This document shows positions 16,387 to 42,776 of a stretch of 64,000 nucleotides of DNA, piece by piece. Source of the stretch: Catenuloplanes niger (GTDB lineage: Bacteria; Actinomycetota; Actinomycetes; Mycobacteriales; Micromonosporaceae); assembly GCF_031458255.1 (NCBI RefSeq), contig NZ_JAVDYC010000001.1, positions 496,001 to 560,000 of the forward strand, read 5' to 3'. A program made the translations under genes and the position numbers. The notes under the pieces are model-generated. The model was not told the DNA's origin. It searched no databases and was given only the letters and a program-made list of their open reading frames with translations. Numbering within the stretch: position 1 is the stretch's first letter; the number at the start of each line of letters is the position of its first letter.

Positions 16387-17448
16387 CTAGGCGGCCGCGG
16401 GCTCCAGGGCCTTGAGCGTCCGTGGCGGCACCACGTCCGTGACGATCAGCTGCTCCACCGGGGCCGGTGCGGGCGCCGGCACCGGAGCCGGGTGCGGCAC
16501 TTCCGGTGCCTCCGCGGCCCGATGGCGGGCGACCAGGCGGACGGCCAGGACCGCAACCCCCGGCAGGCTCGCCACCAGGGCGAACAGCCCGTAGACGACC
16601 GCCACCGTGAGGCCCTGCGCGGCGCCGAGGCCGGTCGTGGCGAACGCCCACGCCAGGAAACCCTCACGCGGGCCGAAGCCGCCGATGCTGACGGGCAGCA
16701 CCATCACCAGCAGCGCGGTGACCAGCAGCGGGAGCAGCGTGCCCAGCGGAGCGACGGACCCGGCCGCGCGCGCCGCCAGCAGGAACGTGGCCAGGTGACC
16801 GCCGAGCACGACCGCGGACGCCAGCAGGATGCCCGGCCAGGTGCGGCGGGCGAGCAGGCCCCGCCGGACGTCGCCGGTCGCGGTGCGCCAGGCCCGCCGC
16901 ACACGGCCGGGGTTGCGGCGCAGCCTGACCGCCACGACGCCGGCGGCCGGCACGGCACCGACGGCGAGCACGGCGAGCAGGGCCGGGGAGACCGACACCA
17001 TGTCCGCGACCGCGACCGCGAGACCCGGATGCGCGATCAGCACCGCGGCGCCGACCGCGAACAGCATGATCTGCCCGGCGGTACGTTCCAGCACCACCGC
17101 GCGCACGCCGCGGCCCACGTCGCCGGTGTCGCGGCCGTTGCGGACCGCCCGGTCGACGTCGCCGAGCAGGCCGCCGGGAAGCGTGGCGTTGAGGAACAGC
17201 GCCTGGTAGTAGTCCGCGATCGCACCGCGCAACGGCAGCCGGATGCCGAGGCCCCGCGCGGTCAGGCACCAGCGCCAGGCGCTGAAGACCGTGGTCAGCA
17301 GCCCGATCCCGGCGGCCGCGAGCAACGTCGGCCAGGTCAGCACGCGCAGGCTGTCCAGGAACGCGACCGATCCGAGCCGCCAGAACAGCAGCGCGATGAT
17401 CGCGGCGCCGGCGACCGGCTTCGCCCAGGAAAGGATCTTCTGCAGCAT
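16387..17448 (-). CDS. Lysylphosphatidylglycerol synthase-TM/flippase-like (YbhN family) membrane protein
   Basis: 353 residues, 8-9 hydrophobic segments. The first is VAGAAIIALLFWRLG; the family signature YYQALFLNATLPGGLLGDVDRAV (about 80-102) and VLPVSIGGFGPREGFLAWAF (about 250-270) are those of the MprF/AglD-type transmembrane domain. It lacks the soluble lysyl-transfer domain, so it probably flips a lipid-linked molecule. A Pro/Ala-rich cytoplasmic tail ends it. It is translationally coupled (TGATG) to the methyltransferase upstream, and a CDP-alcohol phosphatidyltransferase is divergent from that pair, which supports a role in making or moving a lipid conjugate. Confidence 0.9.
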   Translation of the reverse strand: MLQKILSWAKPVAGAAIIALLFWRLGSVAFLDSLRVLTWPTLLAAAGIGLLTTVFSAWRWCLTARGLGIRLPLRGAIADYYQALFLNATLPGGLLGDVDRAVRNGRDTGDVGRGVRAVVLERTAGQIMLFAVGAAVLIAHPGLAVAVADMVSVSPALLAVLAVGAVPAAGVVAVRLRRNPGRVRRAWRTATGDVRRGLLARRTWPGILLASAVVLGGHLATFLLAARAAGSVAPLGTLLPLLVTALLVMVLPVSIGGFGPREGFLAWAFATTGLGAAQGLTVAVVYGLFALVASLPGVAVLAVRLVARHRAAEAPEVPHPAPVPAPAPAPVEQLIVTDVVPPRTLKALEPAAA

Positions 17449-18284
17449 CAGGAGGCCTCTCCGGGCAGCGCCAGCAGGTCGGTGTGATGCACGACGACGG
17501 TCAGCTCACCGGCCGCGGCCTGCGCGAGCCGGCGCCGCAGGTACTCGTCGATCTCGTGCTCGACGCTCGCCGCACGGCCGAGCCGGGTGGACGCGGCCGT
17601 GACCCAGCCGCGCAGCCACTCCGCGATCAGCTCCCGGCGGTCCGGACCGAGGTGCCACCGGCTGGGCCGCGCGTGCACCGTCGCCCCACGCTCCTCGAAC
17701 GCCGCGCTGATCACCTCGACGGCCTCCGCACCGAGCAGCGTGCGGCCGGCCACGTGCTGCCGCAGATGCTCGTTGAACGCGCTGTTCAGCGGCCCGTCCA
17801 GCGGCTCGGCCGGGCTCAGCTCCGCGAGCCCGCTGACCGAGAGCGTGAGCAGCGCGGGCGTGCCCGACTCGGCACAGGCCCCCGCGAGCCGGGCGGCGTC
17901 GTCCGCGTCCAGCAGGTCCAGCAGCGCGGACGCGGTGACCAGCGACACGCCCTCCAGGTCGGCCGCGGACAACTCGGTGATGTCACCCTGCCGGGTCTCC
18001 ACCGTGATCGCGCCGCCGCTGCCGATCATGCTGGCCGCGGCCACGCCGAGCAGGTCCGGGTCGCGATCCTGCAGGATCCAGTGCTGGCGGCCGTCGAGCC
18101 GCGGCGCGAGCCACCGGGCCATCGAACCGGTGCCGCAGCCGAGGTCGAGGATCACCGGGTCCGGCACGTCCGCCAGCCGGCCGCGAAGCTCGTCGGCCAG
18201 CTCCGTCGCCCGGGCCGCGGCGTCCGCCGGCTCACGCAGGTCCAGCCACGTCGAGGCGTACCTCGGCGCTTCCGCGACACTCAT
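17448..18284 (-). CDS. Class I SAM-dependent methyltransferase
   Basis: 278 residues. Motif I is VILDLGCGTGSMARWLAPRL (about 45-64), followed by the acidic loop HWILQDRDPDLLG and motif QGDITELSAADLEGVSLVTAS. The target is unknown. It begins about 200 bp from the divergent CDP-alcohol phosphatidyltransferase, and its stop overlaps the start of the flippase-like gene (TGATG). The three genes therefore form one functional group, probably a lipid or small-molecule modification pathway. Confidence 0.9.
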   Translation of the reverse strand: MSVAEAPRYASTWLDLREPADAAARATELADELRGRLADVPDPVILDLGCGTGSMARWLAPRLDGRQHWILQDRDPDLLGVAAASMIGSGGAITVETRQGDITELSAADLEGVSLVTASALLDLLDADDAARLAGACAESGTPALLTLSVSGLAELSPAEPLDGPLNSAFNEHLRQHVAGRTLLGAEAVEVISAAFEERGATVHARPSRWHLGPDRRELIAEWLRGWVTAASTRLGRAASVEHEIDEYLRRRLAQAAAGELTVVVHHTDLLALPGEAS

Positions 18285-18480
18285 CCCGGCCTCCACTGAC
18301 GGTAACGATCCCGGTCCCGCGCACCGGCCGGTCAAGATCTCCGGCGGTTCGCGTCACCTGGAGGTACGGACGTTTCGCGGATCCGGTTCGAAGATCCGGT
18401 GAACCGTCCGCCGGAAGTTTCCGTGTTGACAGAACGCGACCGGCGGTGACCCGCCGCGGTCCCGGCATGGAGGCAGCACA

Positions 18481-19206
18481 GTGACAGCAGGCGTATGGAC
18501 CGGCACCGTCAGTCCCCTTCGCGGCCCCGCGGCCGGGCTGCTCGCCCAGTTCGCGGTGCTCGGTGGCCTCACCGCCGCGGTCGGTCTCGGCGCCACCGGC
18601 TGGATCGCCGGCACGGTCTACGCGCTCGCGCTCGGCACCCTGCTGACCGGCGCCATGCACCGCGCCGGGATGCGGGTCTTCGGCCCGGCGAACGCGGTCA
18701 CGCTGGCTCGCGCCACGCTGATCGGCGGCGTCACGGCACTGGTCGCGGACGTCCAGCGCACGCCGGTCGCGGTCCTGGTGGTGCTCGCGTCGGTGGCGCT
18801 GGTCCTGGACGGCGTGGACGGGATCGTGGCCCGCCGCACCGGCAGCAGCTCACCGTTCGGGGCCCGCTTCGACGGCGAGGTGGACGCGTTCCTGATCCTG
18901 GTGCTGAGCGTCTTCGTGGCGTTCCACCTGGGCTGGTGGGTGCTGGCGATCGGCGCGTTCCGGTACGCGTTCGTGGCCGCCGGCTGGCACCTCACCTGGC
19001 TGCGGAACGACCTGCCGGTGCGCTACTCCCGCAAGACGGTCGCCGCGATCCAGGGCGTCGTGCTGGTCGCGGCCGCGTCGGGCGTGCTGCCGGGCGTGGC
19101 CGCCGGGCTCCTGGTGGCGGGGGCCCTGGCGGCGCTGGTGTGGTCCTTCGGGCGGGACATCGCCTACCTGCACCGCACCTACGGTGCATCGGCCGACGTG
19201 GCCTGA
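18481..19206 (+). CDS. CDP-alcohol phosphatidyltransferase family protein
   Basis: 241 residues with about six membrane segments. The full catalytic motif D-G-x2-D-G-x-x-A-R-x8-G-x3-D-x3-D is in LDGVDGIVARRTG and PFGARFDGEVDAF (about residues 104-131). The enzyme moves a phospho-alcohol group from a CDP-lipid or CDP-alcohol to an acceptor in the membrane. GGAGG lies seven bases before GTG 18481. The acceptor is not identifiable. The divergent methyltransferase and flippase suggest that the product is methylated and translocated. The 3' end overlaps the convergent MerR gene by 28 bp. Confidence 0.92.
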   Translation: MTAGVWTGTVSPLRGPAAGLLAQFAVLGGLTAAVGLGATGWIAGTVYALALGTLLTGAMHRAGMRVFGPANAVTLARATLIGGVTALVADVQRTPVAVLVVLASVALVLDGVDGIVARRTGSSSPFGARFDGEVDAFLILVLSVFVAFHLGWWVLAIGAFRYAFVAAGWHLTWLRNDLPVRYSRKTVAAIQGVVLVAAASGVLPGVAAGLLVAGALAALVWSFGRDIAYLHRTYGASADVA

Positions 19207-20054
19207 CCGTCGCGGTACCGCTCCGAGGCGGAGATGGCCTCGGCGAAGAGCTGCCCCGCGCGTTCCGCACAGCGTGTCCGGGCGGGTGACCAGTCGTACG
19301 GCATCTTGGTGACCGCCGCGCCGGCGCTCATCCGGGTGTCCGCCGGTTCGGTGTCGTCGACGGTCTCGAGGAGCTTCTCCTCCGCCACGTGCAGCCCGGC
19401 CTTCACGGCGGCCCGGTCCAGGGCCATGAGCTGGGCGCATCGACGCACGGCGAGTTCCTCCACGCGCGGGTCGTCGGGCCGCACGCCGTCGTCCAGCGCC
19501 GCCTCGGCCGCGTCCAGGCGGTCCTGCTCCGCCCGCAGGCCGGGGTCGGTGGCCAGCACGATGAACACGCTGGCCTGGATCGCGGCGCCGAGCGAGCCGA
19601 AGATGCGTTCCGTGACCAGCAGCGCGTCCACGTCGTCGGGGCGCAGCGCGCCCGGCGGCAGGTGGTCGAGCCGGCCGGTGACCGCCTCCGAGAGCAGTCC
19701 GAGCGGGCTGCCCACGGCCCGCAGGCGCCGGACGGCCGCGCGCCGGCGGGCGATGCCGGCCTCCTGCTCGGCCAGGGTCCGCTCCAGCCGGGCCAGCACG
19801 TCGTCGATGTCCCGGGTCCCGTCGAACGCGGCCCGCATGTCGTCGAGGCTGATACCGGCGTCCGCCATCTTGCGGATCCACAGCAGGCGGATCATGTCGT
19901 CGTAGCCGTAGCGGCGCCGGCCGTCCACGCCCCGCTCCGGCTCCGGCAGCAGGCCGATCTCGTGGTAGTGGCGGATGGCGCGCGGCGTCGTCCCGGCGAA
20001 GGCGGCGGCGTCACCGATCTTGACCTGGCGCGGCGGCATGACGGCGGAGAACAT
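19179..20054 (-). CDS. MerR family transcriptional regulator
   Basis: 291 residues. The N-terminal MerR winged helix is VKIGDAAAFAGTTPRAIRHY and HEIGLLPEPERGVDGRRRYG, followed by the dimer helix (LARLERTLAEQEAGIARRRA). The long C-terminal region (about 130-291) is all-helical, resembling the TipA/antibiotic-binding type in size but without recognisable ligand residues. The start at 20054 has AGAGG upstream; the next ATG (20039) has none. It probably regulates the divergent nuclease-family gene or itself. Confidence 0.88.
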   Translation of the reverse strand: MFSAVMPPRQVKIGDAAAFAGTTPRAIRHYHEIGLLPEPERGVDGRRRYGYDDMIRLLWIRKMADAGISLDDMRAAFDGTRDIDDVLARLERTLAEQEAGIARRRAAVRRLRAVGSPLGLLSEAVTGRLDHLPPGALRPDDVDALLVTERIFGSLGAAIQASVFIVLATDPGLRAEQDRLDAAEAALDDGVRPDDPRVEELAVRRCAQLMALDRAAVKAGLHVAEEKLLETVDDTEPADTRMSAGAAVTKMPYDWSPARTRCAERAGQLFAEAISASERYRDGQATSADAP

Positions 20055-20152
20055 GACAGCGGGAACCTCTTTCGTGCTGGGGTCCCTCAACGAGACCACA
20101 TGCCGCTACGGCAGGTGCCAGCTCGCGAGCGCGGGCCTGTAATGATCGCCGG

Positions 20153-21073
20153 ATGCGGAAGACGGTCGTGGTCGTACCGGCGGTGGTGTTGGCGGTTCTG
20201 ATCGGTTTTCCCGGGTTGGTGCCGAACGTGGGGCCGCGCCTCGGGAGCCTGCTCGAGACGTTCCTGCCGTGGCTGGGGCTCGGCGTCCCGGTGCTGTTCG
20301 GAGTCGCGCTGGTCCGGAGGTCACGGCTCGCGGCGGCCGCCGCGGTCCTGCCGATGGTCGCCTGGCTGGTGGTCTGCGGCGGGAAGCTGGCGCAGACCTC
20401 GGGGACCCCGGCCGACATCACGGTGGTGCAGCACAACCTCAGCGACGAGAACCCGGATCCGGCCGGGACCGCGCGCACGCTGCTCACCGCGGACGCGGAG
20501 CTGATCGGCGTGCAGGAGCTGCTGCCGGAGAACGTGGCCGCCTACGACGCGGTGCTGGCCACGGCGTACCCGCATCACGCGGTGCACGGCACGGTCGGGC
20601 TGTGGTCGCGCTACCCGATCGTGGAGTCCCGGTTGGTGGACATCCGGCCGGCGAGCCTGGACGACGGCAACTGGAACCGGGGGCTGCGCGCGGTCGTCGC
20701 CACGCTCCAGGGCGACGTGGCGGTCTACGTCGTGCACCTGCCCTCGCTGCGACTCGGGCCCGGTGGGTTCGGCAGTGACCGGCGCGACGAGTCCGCGGTG
20801 CGGCTCGGCGACGCGCTGGCCGCCGAGCCGCTGGAGCGGGTCGTGCTGATCGGGGATCTGAACGGCACCGTCGAGGACCGCGGGCTGCGTCCGATCACCG
20901 ACCGGGTGAGCACCGCGGGCGACCGGTTCGCGTTCTCCTGGCCGGCGCGCACACCGGTGGCCCGGATCGACCAGATCATGGCGCGGTCGATCGCGGTACG
21001 GACGGTGTGGGCGATGGACCGCACCGGCAGTGATCACCTGCCGATCATGGCCCGGCTCATGTTCCTGTCCTGA
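20153..21073 (+). CDS. Membrane-anchored endonuclease/exonuclease/phosphatase (EEP) family protein
   Basis: 306 residues. Three N-terminal hydrophobic segments (about 4-24, 38-55, 60-78) are followed by an EEP domain facing outward: ITVVQHNLSDENPDP, ELIGVQELLPEN (metal-binding Gln-Glu), VVLIGDLNGTVED (G-D-x-N), ARIDQIMA and the catalytic GSDHLPIMA. This architecture is common in actinomycete membrane proteins of unknown substrate, either secreted nucleic acid or phospholipid/inositol phosphates. It is monocistronic between MerR and a convergent hydrolase. Confidence 0.88.
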   Translation: MRKTVVVVPAVVLAVLIGFPGLVPNVGPRLGSLLETFLPWLGLGVPVLFGVALVRRSRLAAAAAVLPMVAWLVVCGGKLAQTSGTPADITVVQHNLSDENPDPAGTARTLLTADAELIGVQELLPENVAAYDAVLATAYPHHAVHGTVGLWSRYPIVESRLVDIRPASLDDGNWNRGLRAVVATLQGDVAVYVVHLPSLRLGPGGFGSDRRDESAVRLGDALAAEPLERVVLIGDLNGTVEDRGLRPITDRVSTAGDRFAFSWPARTPVARIDQIMARSIAVRTVWAMDRTGSDHLPIMARLMFLS

Positions 21074-21082
21074 CCCGCCGCC

Positions 21083-21889
21083 TCACCGCGCCGCGAGCCA
21101 GTCGAGCGCGCGCACCGCGGTCTCCGGCAGCACCGAGATGTGGCCGGCACCGGGGACGATCCACGACTCCGCGCCGGGGACCAGGCCGCGGGCGTGCGCG
21201 GCCGGCACCACCCGGTCGTCCGCGCCGTGCACCAGCAGCACCGGGACCTCGATCGTGGCCGGGTCGAAACCCCACGGCTGCACGTACGCGAGGTCGTCGT
21301 CGATCAGCGGGCCGGGACCGGCCGCGACCGCGGGCTCGACCACCTCGCCGAACCAGCCCCACTCCCCCTCCAGCGCGGCCCAGTCCGCGGGCGTGAAGTC
21401 GGGCATGGAGTCGCCGGCCGCGTGGGCCTCCTTGGCCGCGCGGCCGGCGATCGCGGCGCGCAGTCCGGCGACACCGGCCGGGCCCATGCCGTCGAACCAC
21501 GTCTCGTCGCGGCGCGGCGCCAGCCCGGCGACGGTCGCGGCCGCGGTCACCCGGCCGGGCAGCAGCGCGGCGCAGGCGAGCGCGTGCGGCCCGCCGCCGG
21601 AGTGCCCGAGCACGGCGAACTCCGCCACGCCCAGCGCGTCCGCGACCGCGGCCGCGTCCCGCGCGGCGGACGCGACGTCGCGGCCCGGCAGCGCCGTGGA
21701 CCCGCCGTAACCGGGCCGGTCGTAGCCGATCAGGCGGACACCGAGCCGATCCGCGGCCTCGAACAGCGGCCGGGGTGGCGTGCCGATGTTCGGCGTCCCG
21801 TGATGCCACATGACGACCCGCGTGCCCGTGCCCCGGTCGTAGGCGTGCAGCGTGCGTCCGTCGCCGGTGGTGATATCCATGCGCGCCAT
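21083..21889 (-). CDS. Alpha/beta-fold hydrolase
   Basis: 268 residues. The nucleophile elbow is G-H-S-G-G-G in FAVLGHSGGGPHALACAALL. The oxyanion region is VVMWHHGTPNIGTPP. The acid is in VPVLLVHGADDRVVPAAHA, and the catalytic His is in IVPGAGHISVLPE. This is a standard proline iminopeptidase/epoxide hydrolase-like fold with unknown substrate. The start could be ATG 21889 or ATG 21880; neither has a strong ribosome binding site. Confidence 0.9.
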   Translation of the reverse strand: MARMDITTGDGRTLHAYDRGTGTRVVMWHHGTPNIGTPPRPLFEAADRLGVRLIGYDRPGYGGSTALPGRDVASAARDAAAVADALGVAEFAVLGHSGGGPHALACAALLPGRVTAAATVAGLAPRRDETWFDGMGPAGVAGLRAAIAGRAAKEAHAAGDSMPDFTPADWAALEGEWGWFGEVVEPAVAAGPGPLIDDDLAYVQPWGFDPATIEVPVLLVHGADDRVVPAAHARGLVPGAESWIVPGAGHISVLPETAVRALDWLAAR

Positions 21890-21991
21890 TGTGATCGACG
21901 GGTACGACAGAACTGACCGTCGCGAGGTGGACCCCGAAGATCCGGCTCGTGACGGATGTGCGGCGTGAACAGCGTTAATACGCTTGGGGGC

Positions 21992-22663
21992 ATGACGATC
22001 TCGCTGGCTGAGGAACTGGTTCTGCTCGCCTACGACGACGAGGGTGCCGCGTCCGGCACCAGCACCTGGCTGGACTACGGCATCGCCGGCGCGCACCTGG
22101 TGGAGCTCGCGCTGGCGGAACGGATCGCGCTGACCGACGGCCGGGTCGACGTGGTCGACGCGACGCCGACCGGCTCGCCGCGGGCGGACGCGGCGCTGGC
22201 CACGATCGCGGCGGACGCGAAGCGGCGCAAGCCGGACGACTGGATCTACCGGCTGTCGAAGAAGGCCCGGCAGCCGGTGCTGGACGAGCTGGTGGGGGCC
22301 GGCATCCTGGAGCGGCGCGCGGACCGGGTGATGCGCATCTTCCCGGTCACCCGCTACCCGGCACCGCACGGTGTCGAGCCGGTGGCGGAGACGGAGCGCC
22401 GCGCGCTGCTGCGGGCCGCGATCGACGGTTCGGACACCGCGCCGGACACCCGGACGCTGGTGCTGTGCACGCTGATCGCCGCGCTCGACTGGGAGAAGCG
22501 GGTCTTCCCGGACCTGCCCCGGAAGGAGACCAAGAAGCGCCTGAAGGAGCTGGGCGAGTCGCACTGGGCCGGCAGCGCGGTGGGCCGCCTGATCAAGGAC
22601 CTGCAGGCCGCGATCATGATGACCACGGTCACGATCGCCGTCGCCGCCACGGCGGGCTCCTGA
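21992..22663 (+). CDS. GPP34 (GOLPH3-like) family protein, copy 1
   Basis: 223 residues. Begins MTISLAEELVLLAYDDEGAA, then IALTDGRVDVVDATPTGSPR, WIYRLSKKARQPVLDELVGA and IFPVTRYPAPHG: the helical GPP34 fold known from the eukaryotic Golgi phosphoprotein GOLPH3, which binds phosphatidylinositol-4-phosphate. In actinobacteria the role is unknown but membrane-lipid binding is plausible. A second, divergent copy lies at 27861-28511, and the two bracket the RibA/RibD-PTPS-glycosyltransferase block. Confidence 0.9.
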   Translation: MTISLAEELVLLAYDDEGAASGTSTWLDYGIAGAHLVELALAERIALTDGRVDVVDATPTGSPRADAALATIAADAKRRKPDDWIYRLSKKARQPVLDELVGAGILERRADRVMRIFPVTRYPAPHGVEPVAETERRALLRAAIDGSDTAPDTRTLVLCTLIAALDWEKRVFPDLPRKETKKRLKELGESHWAGSAVGRLIKDLQAAIMMTTVTIAVAATAGS

Positions 22664-22755
22664 TTACGCCCGCGTGACCCCGGCCGGGACCGTACGATCC
22701 AGGCAGGCGCTCTCTCTCGGCCGCCGTGGGGCGTCGTGCACCCGGAGGGGGAGAA

Positions 22756-23337
22756 ATGATGCCACGTCGTGCCACCGCCGTCATCGCGGGCGTGCTGTCG
22801 GTCCTGGCCGCCGCGCCCGCGCACGCCACCGCGGGCGCGTTCTGGGACAGCTTCGAGGAGCCGTGGGCGCCGACCGGGAGCTTCACCACGTACCGTGCGG
22901 GTCAGGTCTTCGGCCCGTGGGCCGTGATCGGCGGTGACGTGGACCTGATCGGCGGCGGCTACTGGGCGGCCCAGAACGAGGCGCAGTCGCTGGACCTGAA
23001 CGGCGCGCGGGCCGGCGCGATCCGGGCGACGTTCGGCACCACGCTGGCCGCGGACTACCGGGTCAGCTACCGCCTGTCCGGGAACCCGGCCGGCCCGCCG
23101 GAGGTCAAGACCGGCGTGGCCGGCGTCGACGGCCGGCCGCGGCAGGACTTCGCCTTCGACGCGACCCGGACCAGCAGGACCGCCATGGGGTACGTGGAGA
23201 TGTCGTTCACGTTCCGGGCCACGCGCGCGGCGACGTCGCTGGAGCTGACCAGCACCACGCCCGGCGCGTACGGCCCGGTGCTCGACAACGTCCTCGTGCA
23301 GAGCTGCACCATCACCGACTGTTCGGCCGGACGGTGA
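22756..23337 (+). CDS. Secreted DUF642/choice-of-anchor C-type protein
   Basis: 193 residues. The signal peptide is MMPRRATAVIAGVLSVLAAAPAHA, with cleavage likely after AHA. The mature part is a beta-sandwich of the DUF642/choice-of-anchor C type: WDSFEEPWAP, FGPWAVIGGDVDLIGGGYWA, SLDLNGARAGAIRATFGTT and LELTSTTPGAYGPVLDNVLV. Such domains bind carbohydrate or cell-wall polymers. GGAGGGGGAG precedes the ATG. Two C-terminal cysteines (SCTITDC) could form a disulfide. It ends 14 bp from the convergent RibA/RibD gene. Confidence 0.82.
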   Translation: MMPRRATAVIAGVLSVLAAAPAHATAGAFWDSFEEPWAPTGSFTTYRAGQVFGPWAVIGGDVDLIGGGYWAAQNEAQSLDLNGARAGAIRATFGTTLAADYRVSYRLSGNPAGPPEVKTGVAGVDGRPRQDFAFDATRTSRTAMGYVEMSFTFRATRAATSLELTSTTPGAYGPVLDNVLVQSCTITDCSAGR

Positions 23338-23350
23338 CGGTGCGGACCGG

Positions 23351-24649
23351 TCAGGCCGTGACGTCCCAGCCGAGCAGCAGCGCGTCGCCCGCGGTGTAGG
23401 CGGTGCGGTTGGTCAGCGTGAGCCCGGTGGGCAGACGCGTGTCACCGGGCGCCTCCGTGGTCGCGGAGATGGCCACGATCAGCCGGTCGGCCAGACCCGC
23501 CGCGAGGAGCGTGGCGATCAGCCGCGTCCCGCCCTCGACCAGCAACGACTGGACGCCGCCGCGCCGCAGTTCGGCGAGGACCGCGGGCAGGTCGGCGCCG
23601 TCCGGGCCGGCCGAGACCTCGCGCAGGCCGACGCCGGCCGCCTGGATCTCGTCGGCACGGGTCGCGTCGGCCTCCTTGGTGGTGAAGACCGTGGTGGCGG
23701 CCTCGCCGCCGAAGACACGCGCGGTGAGCGGCAGGTTGAGCTCGCTGTCCAGCACGACGCGCAGCGGGTGGGCGCCGGGGACCAGCTCGACCGTGAGCGA
23801 CGGGTCGGTGCGGCGGACCGTGCCGGCGCCGACCAGCACGGCGTCGGTGGCGGCGCGCAGCGCGTGCTCCTCGGCCGTGGGGATGCCGGGCTCGCGCTGG
23901 ATGCGGCCGTCGAGCGTCTGGGTGACGCGCACCATCACGTACGGCCGGTCCGCGCGCGGGCGTATCTCGCCGATCAGGCCGCGGACGTCGATGCCGGCCT
24001 CGGGCACCGTGATCGGTTCCGCGCCGATCGGCGCGACGTGGCCCATCCGGTCCGCCTTGGTGGTCAGGTAGGCGGCGTTGCGCGCGTGCGCGGCGGTCTG
24101 CAGGCCGACCATGGTCTGCACGGCCAGACCGCCGGCGCGCAGGCCCGCGACCTTGTCCGGGTTGTTCGACATCAGGTTGACCGACTCGACGCCGATCGCC
24201 CGGAGCACGGCCGCGGACTCGCCGTACGTGCGGGCGTCCGCGGGCAGGCCGAGGCGCAGGTTCGCGTCCAGCGTGTCCGCGCCCTTGTCCTGCTCGACGT
24301 ACGCCCGGAGCTTGTTGACCAGGCCGATGCCGCGACCCTCGTGCCCGGTGATGTAGAGCACCACGCCGCGGCCGGCCGCCGCGACCGTGCGCATCGCGGT
24401 GCGCAGCTGCACGCCGCAGTCGCAGCGCAGCGAGCCGAGCGCGTCGCCGGTCAGGCACTCGGAGTGCAGGCGGGTGAGGACCGGCTCGGCGCCGGTGACG
24501 TCGCCGCGGATGAGCGCGAGCAGCGTGTGCCCCGCGGCGGTCTCGAAGACGCGCGTCGTGAACTCCCCGTACGGCGTGGGGATCACCACGGAACAGACCT
24601 CGACCGGCGCGGGCGCCGGGTCGCCCGTTCGCTGTGGCGTAAGAATCAT
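23351..24649 (-). CDS. GTP cyclohydrolase II fused to RibD-type (DHFR-fold) reductase
   Basis: 432 residues. Residues ~1-205 are GTP cyclohydrolase II: zinc cysteines C65, C76 and C78 in HSECLTGDALGSLRCDCG, then ITGHEGRGIGLVNKLRAY and the GTP-recognition TYGESAAVLRAIGV. Residues ~236-432 are the RibD C-terminal reductase: RPYVMVRVTQTLDGRI, AVLVGAGTVRRTDPSL and QSLLVEGGTRLIATLLAAGL. RibB, the RibD deaminase half, RibH and RibE are all absent here. The protein could take GTP to a reduced ribitylamino-pyrimidine outside normal riboflavin supply. It is divergent from the dehydrogenase/PTPS/GT operon by about 100 bp. Confidence 0.9.
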   Translation of the reverse strand: MILTPQRTGDPAPAPVEVCSVVIPTPYGEFTTRVFETAAGHTLLALIRGDVTGAEPVLTRLHSECLTGDALGSLRCDCGVQLRTAMRTVAAAGRGVVLYITGHEGRGIGLVNKLRAYVEQDKGADTLDANLRLGLPADARTYGESAAVLRAIGVESVNLMSNNPDKVAGLRAGGLAVQTMVGLQTAAHARNAAYLTTKADRMGHVAPIGAEPITVPEAGIDVRGLIGEIRPRADRPYVMVRVTQTLDGRIQREPGIPTAEEHALRAATDAVLVGAGTVRRTDPSLTVELVPGAHPLRVVLDSELNLPLTARVFGGEAATTVFTTKEADATRADEIQAAGVGLREVSAGPDGADLPAVLAELRRGGVQSLLVEGGTRLIATLLAAGLADRLIVAISATTEAPGDTRLPTGLTLTNRTAYTAGDALLLGWDVTA

Positions 24650-24709
24650 GGCACCTTTGCTACCACGTGGATCAGCCGCTGCCCACCGCTCGACCGATAA
24701 ATGCCCCAC

Positions 24710-24735
24710 CGGGCCTATATGGCTATATGTCCATT
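24710..24735. promoter_or_regulatory. AT-rich direct repeat in divergent promoter
   Basis: CTATATG occurs at 24715-24721 and again at 24723-24729, one base apart, in an AT-rich island (24712-24740) within very GC-rich surroundings. It lies between the divergent starts of the RibA/RibD fusion (24649) and the dehydrogenase operon (24753). It is the likely promoter and control region for both. Confidence 0.45.
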
Positions 24736-24752
24736 TAAGAGATCTTTGGGGG

Positions 24753-25706
24753 ATGTCCGTGAAAGCGCGCGCCGTCCGGTTCCTCGCACCGCGCTCGGTC
24801 GCGGTCGAGAACGTGCACCTCGACGACCCGACCGGCGACGAGCTGCTGGTACGCACCGTCTACTCAGGAATCAGTGCGGGCACGGAGCTGCTCGCGTACC
24901 GCGGTGAGCTGGACGCGGCGACGCCGCTGGACGAGACGCTCGGCGCGTTCGAGGGTGGCTTCAATTACCCGTTCGGGTACGGATACAGCGCGGTCGGCAG
25001 AACCCTTGACGGGACCGCGGTCTTCGCGTTCCATCCGCACCAGGACGTCTTCACCGCACCCGCCGCCGACGTGCTGACGCTGCCGGACGGGCTGGACCCG
25101 CGGCTGGCGACCATGTTCCCGTTGGTGGAGACCGCGTTGCAGCTGAGCCTCGACGCGGGCCCGGTGCTCGGCGAGCCGGTGCTGGTGACCGGCCTGGGCG
25201 CGGTCGGATTGCTCACGTCGCTGCTGCTGACGCGCGCCGGCGCGGAGGTCACCGCGCTGGAGCCGGTCGCCTGGCGCCGCGAACTGGCGGCCTCGGTGGG
25301 GATCCGGGCCATCAGCCCGGCCGAGTCGGACACGCGCGCGGCCCTCCTGGTCGAGACCTCCGGCGCCCCGCGCGCGCTCGCGGACGGACTCGGCCGGCTG
25401 CACCACGAGGGCACCGCCCTGGTCGGCTCCTGGTACGGCACCAAGCCGGTCCCGCTCCCGCTCGGCGCCGACTTCCACCGCCGCCGCCTCACCATCCGCT
25501 CCAGCCAGGTGTCCACGATCCCCGCCGCGCAGCAGGACCGCTGGACCCGCGACCGCCGCCGGGCCACCGCCCTGGCCCTCATGCCCACGCTGCCGCTGGA
25601 CCGGCTCGCCACCACCGAGTTCGCGTTCGAGGACGCCCCGGCCGCGTACGAGGCCCTGGACCGGGGCGTGGCCGGAGTCCTGCACGCGGCGCTGCGCTAT
25701 GAATAA
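24753..25706 (+). CDS. MDR (zinc-type alcohol dehydrogenase-like) oxidoreductase, apparently without catalytic zinc ligands
   Basis: 317 residues. The medium-chain dehydrogenase pattern is visible: VYSGISAGTELLAYRG, FNYPFGYGYSAVGR, MFPLVETALQLSLDAG and the Rossmann LVTGLGAVGLLTSLLLTRAG. The usual G-H-E zinc-binding motif is replaced (GYGYSAVG), so hydride transfer may be zinc-free, as in quinone oxidoreductases. GGGGG just precedes the ATG. It is the first gene of an overlapping four-gene operon: its last 8 bp overlap the PTPS-like gene. It probably oxidises or reduces the pathway intermediate. Confidence 0.88.
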   Translation: MSVKARAVRFLAPRSVAVENVHLDDPTGDELLVRTVYSGISAGTELLAYRGELDAATPLDETLGAFEGGFNYPFGYGYSAVGRTLDGTAVFAFHPHQDVFTAPAADVLTLPDGLDPRLATMFPLVETALQLSLDAGPVLGEPVLVTGLGAVGLLTSLLLTRAGAEVTALEPVAWRRELAASVGIRAISPAESDTRAALLVETSGAPRALADGLGRLHHEGTALVGSWYGTKPVPLPLGADFHRRRLTIRSSQVSTIPAAQQDRWTRDRRRATALALMPTLPLDRLATTEFAFEDAPAAYEALDRGVAGVLHAALRYE

Positions 25707-26097
25707 GAGCATGTACGAAGTCGGCACCTCCCGAGAAGTCCGTGCTTACCACACGATGCCCGGAATGCCCCCACCGGAGGGCGAGCGGCACTCCCACGAC
25801 TACCGCCTGGACATCCGCGTCACCCGCCCGCGGCTGGACGAGCGGGACATGGTCGTCGACCTCGACGTGCTCAACGACGCGCTGCGCGGCGTGACCGACC
25901 GGCTGCACGAGGCCGACCTGGACGAGATCGTCGGCGCGGAGACCACCAAGGACGCGGTCACCGTCGAGGTCTTCTCCCAGTGGCTGCACGCGGTGCTCAC
26001 CGACGCGGTCGGCCCGGTGCCGGGCGCCTCGCTGCACGTCCGCGTCTGGGAGGACCCGCGGATGTACGGCGGATACGAGGGCCCGCTCGGTGGCTGA
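25699..26097 (+). CDS. 6-pyruvoyl-tetrahydropterin synthase/QueD-like protein, altered active site
   Basis: 132 residues, the usual T-fold length. Zinc histidines are kept (AYHTMPG and RHSHDYRL, matching H...H-x-H of QueD). T-x-E in DAVTVEVFSQWL and the pterin-anchoring Glu in RVWEDPRMYGGYEG are also present. The catalytic Cys four residues before the H-x-H is missing (PPPEGERHSHD), and the Asp-His pair is changed (RLHEADLDEI). It may therefore run a different reaction on a pterin- or pyrimidine-like substrate from the RibA/RibD fusion. ATG 25699 overlaps the upstream stop; ATG 25711 is an alternative. Confidence 0.85.
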   Translation: MNKSMYEVGTSREVRAYHTMPGMPPPEGERHSHDYRLDIRVTRPRLDERDMVVDLDVLNDALRGVTDRLHEADLDEIVGAETTKDAVTVEVFSQWLHAVLTDAVGPVPGASLHVRVWEDPRMYGGYEGPLGG

Positions 26098-27181
26098 ACT
26101 CGCGGTCACCCTGCTCACGCTCGGCGACCCGGCGACGATGACCGGTGGGTACCTCTACCACCGGCGGGTCGCCGACCGAGCCCCTCAGCACGGCGCGCGG
26201 GTCGACTTCGTGTCGCTGCCGAAGTGGCGGTTCCCGCTGCCCGCGCTGGCCGGCGCGACCATGATCCGCAAGATCCACGCGCAGAAGCCGGACGTGCTGC
26301 TGGTGGACAGCATCGTGGCCGGCCTGGCCGGGCCGTGGCTGGGCGCGGCGCGCGGGCTGCCGCCGATCGCGGCGATCCTGCACCAGCCGCCCGGCGGCAT
26401 CGACCACGCGTCCGGCCGGCAGCGCACCCAGGCCTCGCTGGACCGCGCGCTCTACAAACGCGCCCAGCGGATGATCATCGCGTCCGAGGACCTGGCGAAC
26501 ACGCTGCGCGAGCAGGGCTTCGACCCGGAACTGCTGGCGGTGGTCCCGCCCGGCCGGGACGCGGCCGCCGAACCCGTCGACCCGCCCGGCGACCTGCGCC
26601 AGGACCGGCAGGTCGCGATCCTGTCGGTCGGCAACTGGATGGCGCGCAAGGGCCTGCTCGACCTGCTGGACGCCTTCTCGAACCTGCCGCCGAACGCGGC
26701 CACGCTGCACCTGGTCGGCGACGAGAACGTCGAGCCGGACTACGCGTCCCGGGTCCGCGCCCGCATCGCGCGCCCGGACCTGCGCGATCGTGTCGTCACG
26801 CACGGCGTCGTCACTCCCGCGGAGGTCGCCGGCTTCTACCGCAAGGCCGACATCTTCGCGCTGGCCAGCACGCGCGAGCCGTACGGCACCGTCTACGGCG
26901 AGGCGATGGCGGCCGGCCTTCCGGTCGTCGGCTGGAACGCCGGCAACCTCCCGCACCTCGCGGCGCACGGCGTCGAGGGCCTGGCGGTGCCGCCCGGCGA
27001 CCGGGTCGCGCTGACCGGCGCGCTGCTGCGCCTGGCCACCGACGACGCGTACCGCGCGAAGATGGCGGCGGCCGCGCGACGGAAGGCCGACACGTTCCCC
27101 ACCTGGGACGACACGTCCCGCATGCTCTTCACCGAGCTCCGCGCGCTGGCCGCGGAGAGAGTCAGGGAGGCGCAGCCGTGA
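26090..27181 (+). CDS. GT4 family glycosyltransferase
   Basis: 363 residues. The C-terminal nucleotide-sugar domain has ILSVGNWMARKGLLDLLDAF, THGVVTPAEVAGFYRKADIF and the retaining GT4 E-x7-E element EPYGTVYGE, followed by MAAGLPVVGWNAGNLPHLAAHGVEG. The acceptor domain has FVSLPKWRFPLPALAG and AAILHQPPGGIDHASGRQ. It starts at GTG 26090, inside the last codons of the PTPS-like gene, so the two are translationally coupled. It likely glycosylates the product of the upstream enzymes. Confidence 0.9.
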   Translation: MAELAVTLLTLGDPATMTGGYLYHRRVADRAPQHGARVDFVSLPKWRFPLPALAGATMIRKIHAQKPDVLLVDSIVAGLAGPWLGAARGLPPIAAILHQPPGGIDHASGRQRTQASLDRALYKRAQRMIIASEDLANTLREQGFDPELLAVVPPGRDAAAEPVDPPGDLRQDRQVAILSVGNWMARKGLLDLLDAFSNLPPNAATLHLVGDENVEPDYASRVRARIARPDLRDRVVTHGVVTPAEVAGFYRKADIFALASTREPYGTVYGEAMAAGLPVVGWNAGNLPHLAAHGVEGLAVPPGDRVALTGALLRLATDDAYRAKMAAAARRKADTFPTWDDTSRMLFTELRALAAERVREAQP

Positions 27182-27846
27182 CCCGGTTCGAGGCGGTCCT
27201 GTTCGACGCGGGCGACACGCTCATCCGCCTCTCCGGCAGCGGCGAGACGCTGCTGCACCGGGCCGCGGCCGACCGGGGCGCCGGGCCGCTCGACCCGGAC
27301 GAGGTCGGTGCGGCCTGGCAGCGCGTGCTGGACCGCAGCAGCACGGCCGAGGAGATGGCGAAGGGCCGCGACCTCGACCCGGAGCGGCACCGGCAGGTGT
27401 GGACCGCGCTCTACGCCGAGGCCGGCTGCGACAAGCTGCTGCCCGGGCTCAGCGACGACCTCTACGCGCTGACCGTGGCCGCCGAGTCGTGGGAGGCGTT
27501 CGAGGACAGCCTGCCCACGCTGCGCGGGCTGCGCGCCCGCGGCCTGCGCATCGGCGTGGTCAGCGACACCGGCTTCGACCTGCGGCCGGCGCTCGACCGG
27601 CTGGGCCTCACGCCGTACCTCGACACGATCGTCATGTCCTTCGAGCACGGCGCCTGCAAGCCCGCGGTCACCTGCTTCACCACGGCCGCGGAACGACTGG
27701 GTGTCGCGCCGGAGCGGACGCTGATGGTCGGCGACAACCCGCTCACCGACTCGGGTGCGGTCACCGCCGGCATGTTCGCGTTCCTGCTGCCCAAGCCGTC
27801 CCCGGCCGGCCCACGCGGGCTGACGCACGTGCTCAGCCTGGTCTGA
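27178..27846 (+). CDS. HAD superfamily hydrolase (phosphatase)
   Basis: 222 residues. HAD motif I is AVLFDAGDTLIRL (D-x-x-x-T), motif II is IGVVSDTGFDLRPALDRLGL, motif III is the Lys in HGACKPAVTCFTTAAERLGV, and motif IV is TLMVGDNPLTDSGA. The cap is helical and inserted after motif I (C1 type). It overlaps the glycosyltransferase stop by 4 bp (GTGA) and is last in the operon. Removal of a phosphate from the RibA/RibD-derived intermediate or from the glycosylated product is plausible. Confidence 0.9.
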   Translation: MTRFEAVLFDAGDTLIRLSGSGETLLHRAAADRGAGPLDPDEVGAAWQRVLDRSSTAEEMAKGRDLDPERHRQVWTALYAEAGCDKLLPGLSDDLYALTVAAESWEAFEDSLPTLRGLRARGLRIGVVSDTGFDLRPALDRLGLTPYLDTIVMSFEHGACKPAVTCFTTAAERLGVAPERTLMVGDNPLTDSGAVTAGMFAFLLPKPSPAGPRGLTHVLSLV

Positions 27847-27860
27847 GGCCGGGCGGCGGC

Positions 27861-28511
27861 TCAGGTGGTCGCGGCCGGCAGCACGGCCGCGACCATCACC
27901 ACCGCCTCGACGTCGGCCACGACGCCGGCCACCGGCGGCGCGTCCCGCAGCTCCGCCAGCCGCCGCTGGAGGTGGGCCGCGGGCACGTCCGGAAAGACGA
28001 GCCGGTCCCAGCCGAGCGCGCCGACCAGCGTGCACAGCACGGCCACGCGCGCGTCCACCGGCCCGGCGCCGTCGACCGCGGCCCGCATGCGCGCCCGCAC
28101 GTCGGCCTCCGCCGGCGGCGTCACACCGCCCGGCGCCGGATAGCGCCTCGCCGGGAACACCAGCAGCACCCGGCCGTCCCGCCGCTCCAGCACCCCGCCG
28201 TCGACCAGCCGGTCCAGCACGACCCGGTGGCCGTCCTCGCGGGCCAGCGTCCACAGCCAGTCACGCGGCGTCAGTGACGTCCCGGCACCCGCGATCCGGG
28301 CCAGCACCGCGTCCGGCACGGCCCGGCCGGTCGGCGTCGCGTCCGACACGGCGACCGTGCCGCCGTCGATCGCGATCCGCCCCTCGAGCATCAGTTCCAG
28401 CAGCGACGCGGCGGCGACCCCGTGGTTCAGGCCGCGGACGCCGGCCTCCGTGGTGCCGTCCTCGTCGCGGTAGGCGAGCAGGACGAGCGCTTCGGCCAGC
28501 GAAATATCCAC
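27861..28511 (-). CDS. GPP34 (GOLPH3-like) family protein, copy 2
   Basis: 216 residues starting at GTG 28511: VDISLAEALVLLAYRDEDGT, IDGGTVAVSDATPTGRAVPD, WLWTLAREDGHRVVLDRLVD, VFPARRYPAPGGV. It shares the same landmarks, in the same order, as the copy at 21992-22663 and is clearly homologous but diverged. It is convergent with the HAD gene (14 bp apart). Together the two copies flank the dehydrogenase-PTPS-GT-HAD and RibA/RibD block, which may mean a membrane-recruitment role for that pathway. Confidence 0.9.
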   Translation of the reverse strand: MDISLAEALVLLAYRDEDGTTEAGVRGLNHGVAAASLLELMLEGRIAIDGGTVAVSDATPTGRAVPDAVLARIAGAGTSLTPRDWLWTLAREDGHRVVLDRLVDGGVLERRDGRVLLVFPARRYPAPGGVTPPAEADVRARMRAAVDGAGPVDARVAVLCTLVGALGWDRLVFPDVPAAHLQRRLAELRDAPPVAGVVADVEAVVMVAAVLPAATT

Positions 28512-28566
28512 GACCCAGAGGATATGCCCCGTTCCGGCGTGCCGGCGGGCGGTCGACACGGCCGAG

Positions 28567-40952: not shown

Positions 40953-42776
40953 TCAGCTGATCTGGAAGCTCGGGTGCGGCGGCTGGTTGTAGGCCGTGTT
41001 CTGCCAGGCCACCGCCTCGCGGTACATCCGGTCCTGCATCAGCGACACGCGCGAGATGCCGGTCGGATCGGTGGTCTGGTAGATCCGCAGCGCCGTGTTG
41101 TTCGTGGTCGGCCAGATCACCTCCTCGCGCCAGTCACCGAGGATGTCGGCCTGCAGCGACGGCGTCGCCTTGGTGCCGTTGTTGGAGTGCACGCCGCTCG
41201 CGGTCAGCAGCGTGGTGTCCGACGACGTGCCGTACTTCTTGATGGTGGTGCCGTCCAGCAGCTCGCGCTGGCCGTCGCCGTCCCACCAGATTACGAAGTT
41301 CGCGGACGACGGCTTGCGGCCGACGTTCGCGCCGGACGTGTTGCGCAACCCGTCCACCGCGTTCGACCAGGACTCCGCGCCCGGGCTGCCGGCCCAGATG
41401 TCGGCGGAGACGCCACGGCCGTTGTCGCAGCCGCACGACGGCGCGTTCCAGATGATCGCGCCGGTACGCGCGTCCGCCATGTAGTGCGCGTACTTGCTGC
41501 CGTCCTCGTCGACCTTGAACACCTCGAGGCCGCCGCGGCTCGGGATCAGGTCGCCGACGTGCAGCGCGTCGCCGTGCCCCTGATTGGTGCGCCACAGCCC
41601 GGCGCCGTTGTCGTCGATCGCGATCGCGCCGTAGATGATCTCGTCCCGGCCGTCCGCGTCCACGTCCGCGACGGACAGGTTGTGGTTGCCCTGCCCGGCC
41701 CAGGCCGACCCGTTCGTGGAGGAGTTGCTGTCGAACGTCCACTTCCGGGTCAGCGCGCCGTTGCGGAAGTCCCAGGCCGCCACCACGGTACGGGTGTAGT
41801 AGCCGCGCGCCATGATGATGCTCGGGTACGACCCGTTGAGGTACGCGGTCCCGGCCAGGAACCGGTCCACCCGGTTGCCGTAGTTGTCACCCCAGCTGCT
41901 GACCGTCCCGCGCGGCGGCACGTAGTCCACGGTGGCCGCGGCCCGCCCGGTCTGCCCGTTGAAGACGGTGAGGTACTCCGGCCCCGTGAGGATGTATCCG
42001 GAACTGTTCCGGTGGTCCGCGCTCGCGTTGCCGATGACCGTGCCGCCGCCGTCCCGGGTGCCGTCCGCGGTCTTCATCGCGACCTCGGCCCGGCCGTCGC
42101 CGTCGTAGTCGAAGACCTGGAACTGCGTGTAGTGCGCGCCGGCCCGGATGTTGCGCCCGAGGTCGATGCGCCACAACCGGGTCCCGTTCAGCCGGTACGC
42201 GTCGACGAACACGTTCCCGGTGTAGCCGGACTGCGAGTTGTCCTTCGCGTTCGACGGGTCCCACTTCAGCACGATCTCGTACGCGCCGTCGCCGTCCAGG
42301 TCGCCCACGGACGCGTCGTTCGCCGAGTAGGTGTAGGCGACACCGTCCGGCGTGGTACCACCGGGCGGCACCTGGATCGGCACGTCCTGGCTGGCCGCGA
42401 GCGTCCGCACCGGCTCCTCCGCGGGCGTCCCGAGCGTCTCGGCGCCGCCGGTGACCGGCCGGACCGCGTAGGTCGCGCTCGCCGGCGCGCCCGCGTCCGT
42501 GAAGTTGGTGACCGGCGCGGTGCTGACCCGGACGCCGTCGCGGTACACGGCGAACGCGACGCCGGCCGGATCCGACGCGAGCAGCCGCCAGGACAGGAAG
42601 TTGCCGCGGTCGGTGCGGATGCTGACCAGCCCGCGGTCGAGGCGCTCGGTGTTGCCGGCGGCCGGCGCGGCGGCCGGCGTGGGCGTCTCCGCCGCGTGCG
42701 CCACCGCGACACCGCCGCCGGTGAGCAGCAGCGTGGTGGCGGCGAGTGCGGCGGACCGCTTCTTGATACGTTTCAT
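40953..42776 (-). CDS. Secreted rhamnogalacturonan lyase (polysaccharide lyase family 11)
   Basis: 607 residues. The signal peptide MKRIKKRSAALAATTLLLTGGGVAVAHA is followed by the PL11 eight-bladed propeller. ERLDRGLVSIRTDRGNFLSW is the family N-terminus, and calcium-binding blades are ASVGDLDGDGAYEIVLKWDP, FDYDGDGRAEVAMKTADGT and LSVADVDADGRDEIIYGA; the family motif GDWREEVIWP closes it. It cleaves the rhamnogalacturonan I backbone of plant pectin outside the cell. There is no carbohydrate-binding module. A consensus promoter lies at 42925-42953. Confidence 0.95.
   Translation of the reverse strand: MKRIKKRSAALAATTLLLTGGGVAVAHAAETPTPAAAPAAGNTERLDRGLVSIRTDRGNFLSWRLLASDPAGVAFAVYRDGVRVSTAPVTNFTDAGAPASATYAVRPVTGGAETLGTPAEEPVRTLAASQDVPIQVPPGGTTPDGVAYTYSANDASVGDLDGDGAYEIVLKWDPSNAKDNSQSGYTGNVFVDAYRLNGTRLWRIDLGRNIRAGAHYTQFQVFDYDGDGRAEVAMKTADGTRDGGGTVIGNASADHRNSSGYILTGPEYLTVFNGQTGRAAATVDYVPPRGTVSSWGDNYGNRVDRFLAGTAYLNGSYPSIIMARGYYTRTVVAAWDFRNGALTRKWTFDSNSSTNGSAWAGQGNHNLSVADVDADGRDEIIYGAIAIDDNGAGLWRTNQGHGDALHVGDLIPSRGGLEVFKVDEDGSKYAHYMADARTGAIIWNAPSCGCDNGRGVSADIWAGSPGAESWSNAVDGLRNTSGANVGRKPSSANFVIWWDGDGQRELLDGTTIKKYGTSSDTTLLTASGVHSNNGTKATPSLQADILGDWREEVIWPTTNNTALRIYQTTDPTGISRVSLMQDRMYREAVAWQNTAYNQPPHPSFQIS

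Follow-up and report, generated by a model that had tools for sequence, protein, structure and literature searches.

The closest described relatives of the genes studied here lie in the SCO6650-SCO6655 region of Streptomyces coelicolor, which has been studied in part and for which we know of no product. SCO6650 reportedly lacks zinc and the catalytic triad and does not perform the PTPS reaction, while SCO6655, a GTP cyclohydrolase II (GCHII) homolog, is said to carry a methionine at the key tyrosine and to leave the formyl group on its product. We analysed a 64,000-nucleotide stretch of Catenuloplanes niger (the window, positions 496001-560000 of the 9.74-Mb single-contig genome). In this window, a GCHII-RibD_C fusion gene is divergent to an operon of MDR, PTPS-like, GT4 and HAD genes overlapping end to end, and genes for a CDP-alcohol phosphatidyltransferase (CDPPT), a methyltransferase (MT) and an LPG_synthase_TM membrane protein, our candidate flippase, lie 4-8 kb away. 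Among solved structures, SCO6650 (PDB 3d7j) comes closest to the window PTPS-like protein, both by profile and by model fold. In one Streptomyces-like locus a PTPS 95% identical to SCO6650 belongs to a cluster ordered CDPPT-MDR-PTPS-GT4-MT-flippase-creatininase-GCHII, which differs from the window by the absence of RibD_C, a methionine at the Tyr105 position of GCHII, the addition of a creatininase and the replacement of one zinc histidine. SCO6655 is mentioned once in a metabolic-modelling paper.

Other known systems resemble single parts of this locus. The riboflavin and archaeal Arf pathways share its first steps (GCHII, or GTP cyclohydrolase III (GCH III) and formamidase, then reduction by RibD_C or ArfC), but the block in the window shows no deaminase, RibB, RibH or RibE and other enzymes follow. 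Known pterin glycoside pathways start from GTP cyclohydrolase I products and, to our knowledge, include no phosphatidyltransferase or flippase. The pterin glycosides of Chlorobium and cyanobacteria also involve a PTPS-fold protein and a glycosyltransferase, a likeness by analogy in which the glycosyltransferases were not compared; a dedicated pterin glycosyltransferase is known in Chlorobium (PMC5683033). PgsA and the phosphatidyl- and archaetidylinositol-phosphate synthases have the same family and active-site motif as the window CDPPT, which differs from them in scoring below all NCBIfam cut-offs listed and in sitting beside pterin-type genes. The original prediction for this DNA knew of no characterised product for the set, and our search found none: neither the combined gene set nor a pterin lipid is named in the titles and abstract openings listed from the PMC literature searched, a scope that takes in few subscription papers and is weak evidence of absence.

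All the genes that had been predicted were found in their predicted places, and all except the MDR gene scored above their Pfam cut-offs. The features are as follows.

16387-17448, minus strand: LPG_synthase_TM membrane protein, candidate flippase (Pfam, 106 bits, 2.7e-30)
17448-18296, minus strand: S-adenosylmethionine-dependent MT (Pfam Methyltransf_25, 42 bits, 1.9e-10)
18556-19206, plus strand: CDPPT, active-site motif intact (Pfam CDP-OH_P_transf, 54 bits, 2.7e-14)
23351-24649, minus strand: GCHII-RibD_C fusion, 432 aa, start probable (Pfam GTP_cyclohydro2, 191 bits, 1.5e-56; RibD_C, 120 bits, 1.8e-34)
24650-24752: divergent intergenic region separating the fusion from the operon (sequence conserved among three Catenuloplanes)
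24753-25706, plus strand: MDR-fold dehydrogenase, polyol-dehydrogenase-like (ADH_zinc_N and NCBIfam BchC, both below cut-off; fold model)
25699-26097, plus strand: PTPS-like T-fold protein (Pfam PTPS, 57 bits, 2.2e-15)
26090-27181, plus strand: GT4 glycosyltransferase (Pfam Glyco_trans_1_4, 92 bits, 3.8e-26)
27178-27846, plus strand: HAD phosphatase-type hydrolase (Pfam Hydrolase, 68 bits, 1.7e-18)

The predicted fusion facing an overlapping operon was present as described, by domain matches and, for MDR, by its predicted fold, as were the CDPPT and MT nearby. The predicted MprF-type flippase held for the LPG_synthase_TM domain only, since no MprF aminoacyl-phosphatidylglycerol synthase domain was found by Pfam. 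We propose that these genes encode one dedicated pathway, starting from GTP, to a glycosylated and methylated pterin or pyrimidine that is joined to a phospholipid and flipped; we consider this reading evenly poised between right and wrong.

The set recurs in other genomes. Loci were picked by MDR alone, and the best 80 of 531 stretches by E-value (54 bacterial and 26 archaeal, labelled by hand from record titles) were tallied with hidden Markov models derived from the loci's own proteins. Many loci come from metagenome-assembled genomes (MAGs) with short contigs and the species are not independent; the Pfam scans covered a single representative of many of the protein groups, with c37 (GCHII), c11 (GT4) and c92 (MT) outside them. 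The retrieved stretches contained PTPS in 72 loci, GT4 in 65, RibD_C in 52, MT in 38, GCHII in 31, CDPPT in 29, the flippase and GCH III in 11 each, FolB in 10 and HAD in 4. GCHII, RibD_C, MDR, PTPS, GT4, MT, CDPPT and the flippase occurred all together in 8 of the 54 bacterial loci, from four lineages.

L052: Catenuloplanes
L053 and L054: Virgisporangium
L058: Blastococcus
L099 and L103: MAGs, Anaerolineae and Anaerolineaceae (by record title)
L127 and L128: MAGs, Gammaproteobacteria and Pseudomonadales (by record title)

The two blocks, which had been predicted to be linked, are adjacent in Virgisporangium and in genome G036, and locus L036, which comes from a different family within the order, has flippase-MT-CDPPT-HAD-GT4-PTPS-MDR in one direction. 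In the window, five unrelated genes separate the blocks (MerR, EEP, alpha/beta hydrolase, GPP34 and DUF642 by Pfam); most of them recur in the four other genomes of the genus, and the Virgisporangium and G036 loci showed none of them in this place. In a Streptomyces-like genus, the full cluster was found in five of seven genomes, at one place each (L149-L153), with CDPPT divergent to MDR-PTPS-GT4-MT-flippase, followed by a creatininase on the opposite strand and GCHII. These five clusters have seven genes in common with the window (GCHII, PTPS-like, MDR, GT4, MT, CDPPT and flippase). There are six MDR places in the seven genomes, one of the five having a second MDR copy (L154) without other cluster genes. 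Among the 26 archaeal loci, nine held exactly MDR, PTPS, GT4, MT and CDPPT, four held MDR, PTPS, MT, CDPPT and GCH III, and the remaining 13 held other subsets, one of them MDR alone; the haloarchaeal loci pair MDR and PTPS with CDPPT, MT or GCH III. The gene-neighbourhood comparison thus showed the combined set conserved in distant lineages, the opposite of the outcome that had been named as refuting the link. Small DUF7475-related proteins also recur near haloarchaeal clusters (L090:8695-9069, L120:3066-3446 and related loci), in two sequence groups of nine and eight loci; of the one member scanned from each, the second was below cut-off.

The occurrence of CDPPT was also compared with chance, and CDPPT and MT with the rest of the genome. 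The genome has 10 CDPPTs in 9.74 Mb, so that chance would place one in about 2% of 20-kb stretches; CDPPT was found in 17 of the 35 loci with flanks of 9 kb or more on both sides, in a set of non-independent loci and against a rate taken from one genome. A CDPPT profile built from gammaproteobacterial, Chloroflexota and haloarchaeal loci only was searched against the Catenuloplanes genome. The window CDPPT was its best match (62 bits, the next at 30), although by the general Pfam model it ranks only fourth in the genome. The window MT was likewise the genome's best match to an out-of-phylum MT profile (84 bits, the next at 34) and is 33% identical to a gammaproteobacterial cluster member. Pairwise identities of the cluster proteins were correlated with those of MDR (Spearman), giving 0.85 for GCHII, 0.80 for the flippase, 0.78 for MT, 0.75 for CDPPT, 0.73 for RibD_C, 0.68 for PTPS, 0.61 for GT4 and 0.39 for GCH III. 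None of 200 permutations reached these values, except for GCH III (2/200), and shared species history inflates the correlations.

The fusion carries GTP_cyclohydro2 and RibD_C in one frame as its sole Pfam families, without a deaminase domain. It matched E. coli GCHII (2bz0, 3.3e-51), an archaeal reductase (2azn, 5.6e-21) and B. subtilis RibD (2e-15); the reductase half scored 111 bits with TIGR01508 and 114 bits with the general TIGR00227, both under their cut-offs. Its start was probably at 24649 rather than 24589, giving 432 aa, since a one-base indel lies just upstream of this in-frame ATG in one of two other Catenuloplanes sequences and the downstream frame is conserved. The intergenic region 24650-24752 and the fusion N-terminus are conserved together in three Catenuloplanes sequences, possibly as a shared regulatory site. 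In the alignment to 2bz0, the GCHII zinc cysteines SECLTGDALGSLRCDCG and the equivalent of Tyr105 are present; we take the cysteines to bind zinc and the tyrosine to be needed for full deformylation. This position is a tyrosine in 31/31 GCHIIs found in the bacterial loci (one read by eye) and a methionine in 5/5 of the Streptomyces-like clusters, where a creatininase stands alongside in 5/5. A Sinorhizobium protein annotated as creatininase is reported to deformylate exactly this intermediate of the GCHII pathway (PMC9478397); the Streptomyces-like creatininase was not compared with it. GCH III was found in 11 of the 26 archaeal loci. The occurrence of GCHII with tyrosine, GCHII with methionine plus creatininase, and GCH III beside the same downstream genes suggests three forms of one entry step. 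A second copy of GCH III dedicated to this pathway is not always present in archaea: two of the four genomes examined have two copies and the other two have one.

The distribution of RibD_C is our best evidence for the use of a ribityl pyrimidine that has not been deaminated. RibD_C was found in 52/54 bacterial loci versus 0/26 archaeal loci, and each of four archaeal genomes examined has one RibD_C gene outside the fetched loci. In archaeal riboflavin synthesis reduction precedes deamination, whereas bacteria deaminate first; archaeal loci would therefore need no second RibD_C, and bacteria would need one. The Streptomyces-like loci are an exception that counts against the proposed pathway, with RibD_C absent in 5/5 of them. 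The Catenuloplanes genome has 12 RibD_C matches, so that in actinobacteria the reduction could be supplied by a copy outside the locus.

The PTPS-like protein keeps the zinc histidines H18, H31 and H33 and the pterin-binding E118. In an alignment of 38 family members H18 and H31 are conserved in at least 90% and H33 and E118 are invariant. We presume the roles of these residues and the equivalence of E118 to the pterin glutamate of QueD. In common with QueD, 6-pyruvoyl-tetrahydropterin synthase and PTPS-III, it has the T-fold, the zinc histidines and the pterin glutamate. In the profile alignment to QueD, however, the catalytic cysteine is replaced by Glu27 and the Asp-His dyad by His-Glu, so that the catalytic triad of QueD and PTPS is not kept, and the partners of the protein are GCHII or GCH III. 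It also scores far below the QueD and 6PTHBS NCBIfam cut-offs. A single-sequence search against solved structures gave no match at E 0.01, while the 38-member profile matched SCO6650 (3d7j) best in the PDB (8.6e-25), then QueD; the AlphaFold model (pLDDT 96.7) also had 3d7j as its best fold match. Across the 72 PTPS proteins found, the catalytic-cysteine position is a glutamate in 54 and an alanine in 15, with three not read. Plasmodium PTPS also has a glutamate at this place, and structure 3m0n is titled as an E37A catalytic-residue mutant.

FolB accompanied only PTPS proteins of the alanine type where the position was readable (9/15 with alanine, 0/54 with glutamate, 0/3 unread). FolB at first looked like a replacement enzyme of the pathway, but 8/9 genomes examined have a single FolB, which is therefore probably the folate gene. 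It adjoins the RibD_C gene in Rubrobacter-type loci (L076, L110, L118, L047 and others) and in Chloroflexus (L111, L089); the Rubrobacter-type loci also carry a PF01553 acyltransferase.

The MDR protein scored 28.1 bits with ADH_zinc_N, under the cut-off of 31.8, and 85 bits (4.9e-24) with NCBIfam BchC, also under its cut-off. Its AlphaFold model (pLDDT 92.7) has the MDR fold and matched polyol dehydrogenases (butanediol, sorbitol and arabinitol dehydrogenase) and TarJ. In its profile matches to butanediol, threonine and sorbitol dehydrogenases, the first two catalytic zinc ligands are lost, the cysteine of GICG being S41 and the histidine of GHE being Y78. The predicted polyol-dehydrogenase fold fits, without proving, an enzyme that may oxidise a sugar-alcohol chain.

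The motif DxxDGxxAR...GxxxDxxxD is intact in the window CDPPT (translation read by eye), whose true start may lie upstream of 18556 in a frame open from 18481, and, with a slightly relaxed pattern, in 29/29 CDPPTs found among the 80 loci. Its best NCBIfam match was archaetidylinositol phosphate synthase, at 27 bits and far below every listed cut-off. The LPG_synthase_TM gene recurs in other Catenuloplanes and in the Virgisporangium, Blastococcus and G036 loci. The actinobacterial loci L056, L059-L063, L065, L072 and L074 have a further GT4-type gene (group c10) opposite the first, in a few of them together with a histidine phosphatase (c25), which suggests a different sugar decoration.

The following order of steps would be consistent with these proteins. 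The RibA domain of the fusion would open GTP to 2,5-diamino-6-ribosylamino-pyrimidinone 5'-phosphate and the RibD_C domain would reduce the sugar to ribityl without prior deamination, two steps to which family identity and the genomic pattern both point. From the pyrimidine onward, we infer every step and the product from sequence. The zinc-less MDR may oxidise the ribityl chain at one of its hydroxyls, such as that on C2'. The PTPS-like protein, which bears zinc, may bind the oxidised product and perhaps convert it by ring closure or rearrangement to a dihydropterin, in a pterin route free of GTP cyclohydrolase I. GT4 would add a sugar and MT a methyl group. The CDPPTs of the PgsA and inositol-phosphate types accept polyol phosphates, and the reductase step would yield a compound of this kind; the window CDPPT may join the polyol or its phosphate to a phosphatidyl or archaetidyl group. 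HAD might remove a spare phosphate, as in phosphatidylglycerol synthesis, and the LPG_synthase_TM protein would flip the product in a last step. The putative end product would be a glycosyl pterin or pyrimidine anchored in the membrane, with probable redox or light activity. In its widest form, the proposal is that bacteria and archaea share a pathway to a new class of membrane lipid, with a glycosylated, methylated pterin-like head group made from the GCHII or GCH III product, its ribityl chain reduced then re-oxidised; once coupled to a phosphatidyl or archaetidyl moiety, this redox- or light-active molecule would be flipped outward. We advance this form tentatively, as a possibility that stands somewhat short of probable.

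Several results weigh against a single pathway ending in a flipped lipid. The flippase profile from other phyla had no match in the Catenuloplanes genome, which leaves its cross-phylum orthology unsupported, and the flippase was found in 0/26 archaeal loci. HAD is limited to its 4/80 loci, the substrates of GT4, MT and HAD are not readable from sequence, and two of the MT groups tallied reached no Pfam cut-off, c21 being without any match and c27 having weaker ones. No fusion lies within the 20 kb of L036, the MDR match is absent in two of the seven Streptomyces-like genomes and the PTPS of that genus has lost a zinc histidine. The retrieved stretches of the Rubrobacter-type and Chloroflexus loci, some on short contigs, had no CDPPT or flippase, and few of the actinobacterial MAG loci, with the same limit, showed either. 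The distribution of PTPS is patchy: it was present in the four other genomes of the genus, in 0/20 genomes sampled from the rest of the family and in 22/296 genomes of the phylum at 1e-10. The bacterial counts are also uneven, with GT4 in 50/54 and PTPS in 48/54 loci versus CDPPT in 10, MT in 19 and the flippase in 11. These counts, and the dedicated pterin glycosyltransferase of Chlorobium (PMC5683033), favour a core (GTP cyclohydrolase, RibD_C, MDR, PTPS-like and GT4) that makes a soluble glycosylated pterin or pyrimidine comparable to the pterin glycosides known from bacteria, to which CDPPT, MT and the membrane protein would be an optional, lineage-limited module for anchoring or export. 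We keep this alternative as a serious one, if on the doubtful side, because CDPPT occurs in only 10/54 bacterial loci. It agrees less well with the archaeal loci, where CDPPT (19/26) exceeds GT4 (15/26), with the presence of CDPPT in 5/5 Streptomyces-like loci and with a divergence of CDPPT that tracks that of MDR, and short contigs hide neighbours.

The five intervening genes of the window, the failure of the flippase profile to cross phyla and the absence of the lipid module from most bacterial loci would also be expected if a pterin-like cofactor operon and a phospholipid head-group module were unrelated and merely neighbours by chance in this genus. Independent gain of each module in every lineage would then be required, and the adjacency in Virgisporangium and G036, the recurrence in Blastococcus, Anaerolineae, gammaproteobacterial, haloarchaeal and Streptomyces-like loci, and the excess of CDPPT over the chance rate given above, with its limits, largely refute this explanation, which we judge quite improbable. 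Still less credit is due to the fusion being a spare riboflavin supply among housekeeping neighbours, which we find very hard to believe. GCHII and RibD_C are domains of riboflavin enzymes, and they were the only riboflavin families seen by Pfam in the block, where no RibB, RibH, RibE or deaminase was found. The prediction that the other rib genes are absent held for the block but not genome-wide: another GCHII gene is grouped with RibH and one RibD_C gene at 7.206-7.209 Mb, distant from the window at 0.50-0.56 Mb. The fusion is therefore not the sole source of riboflavin, and its role as such a supply was rejected; it has no deaminase domain and is divergent to MDR-PTPS in many actinobacterial loci. 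The diversion of the intermediate that had been predicted is accordingly probable. A defence system was also rejected, since PADLOC gave only an MT match (mad2, 38 bits), as was a phage or viral origin, relatives of MDR being neither confirmed in viral contigs nor found in phage records.

Taken as one dedicated pathway, the genes belong to known families; as far as we found, what is new is the architecture, with a product that we infer. If the reading is true, Streptomyces-like bacteria, haloarchaea, Chloroflexota and some proteobacteria would have in common a GTP-derived metabolite, perhaps a lipid, that has gone unrecognised, and a gene set would have been kept together across two domains of life. 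A role would also be assigned to SCO6650 and to the orphan GCHII of Streptomyces, for which we know of no explained purpose. The reading offers a chemically precise target for searches in laboratory strains: a lipid or glycoside that absorbs UV, carries label from guanine and depends on the cluster.

The core block lies between two GPP34 (GOLPH3-like) genes, at 21992-22663 (plus strand) and 27861-28559 (minus strand). The pair recurs beside the cluster in other Catenuloplanes and was not seen in the mapped loci of other genera; the eukaryotic GPP34 family binds a phosphoinositide lipid. The gene at 20153-21073 (plus strand) encodes an endonuclease/exonuclease/phosphatase-family protein with a VanJ-like match of 258 bits against a cut-off of 700. 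No RNA family reached the Rfam gathering score and no tRNA was found in the window. Elsewhere in it, 47861-49819 (minus strand) encodes a GGDEF-EAL cyclic-di-GMP protein unrelated to the cluster, and 40953-42776 (minus strand) a rhamnogalacturonan lyase family 11 protein with a very strong match (783 bits).

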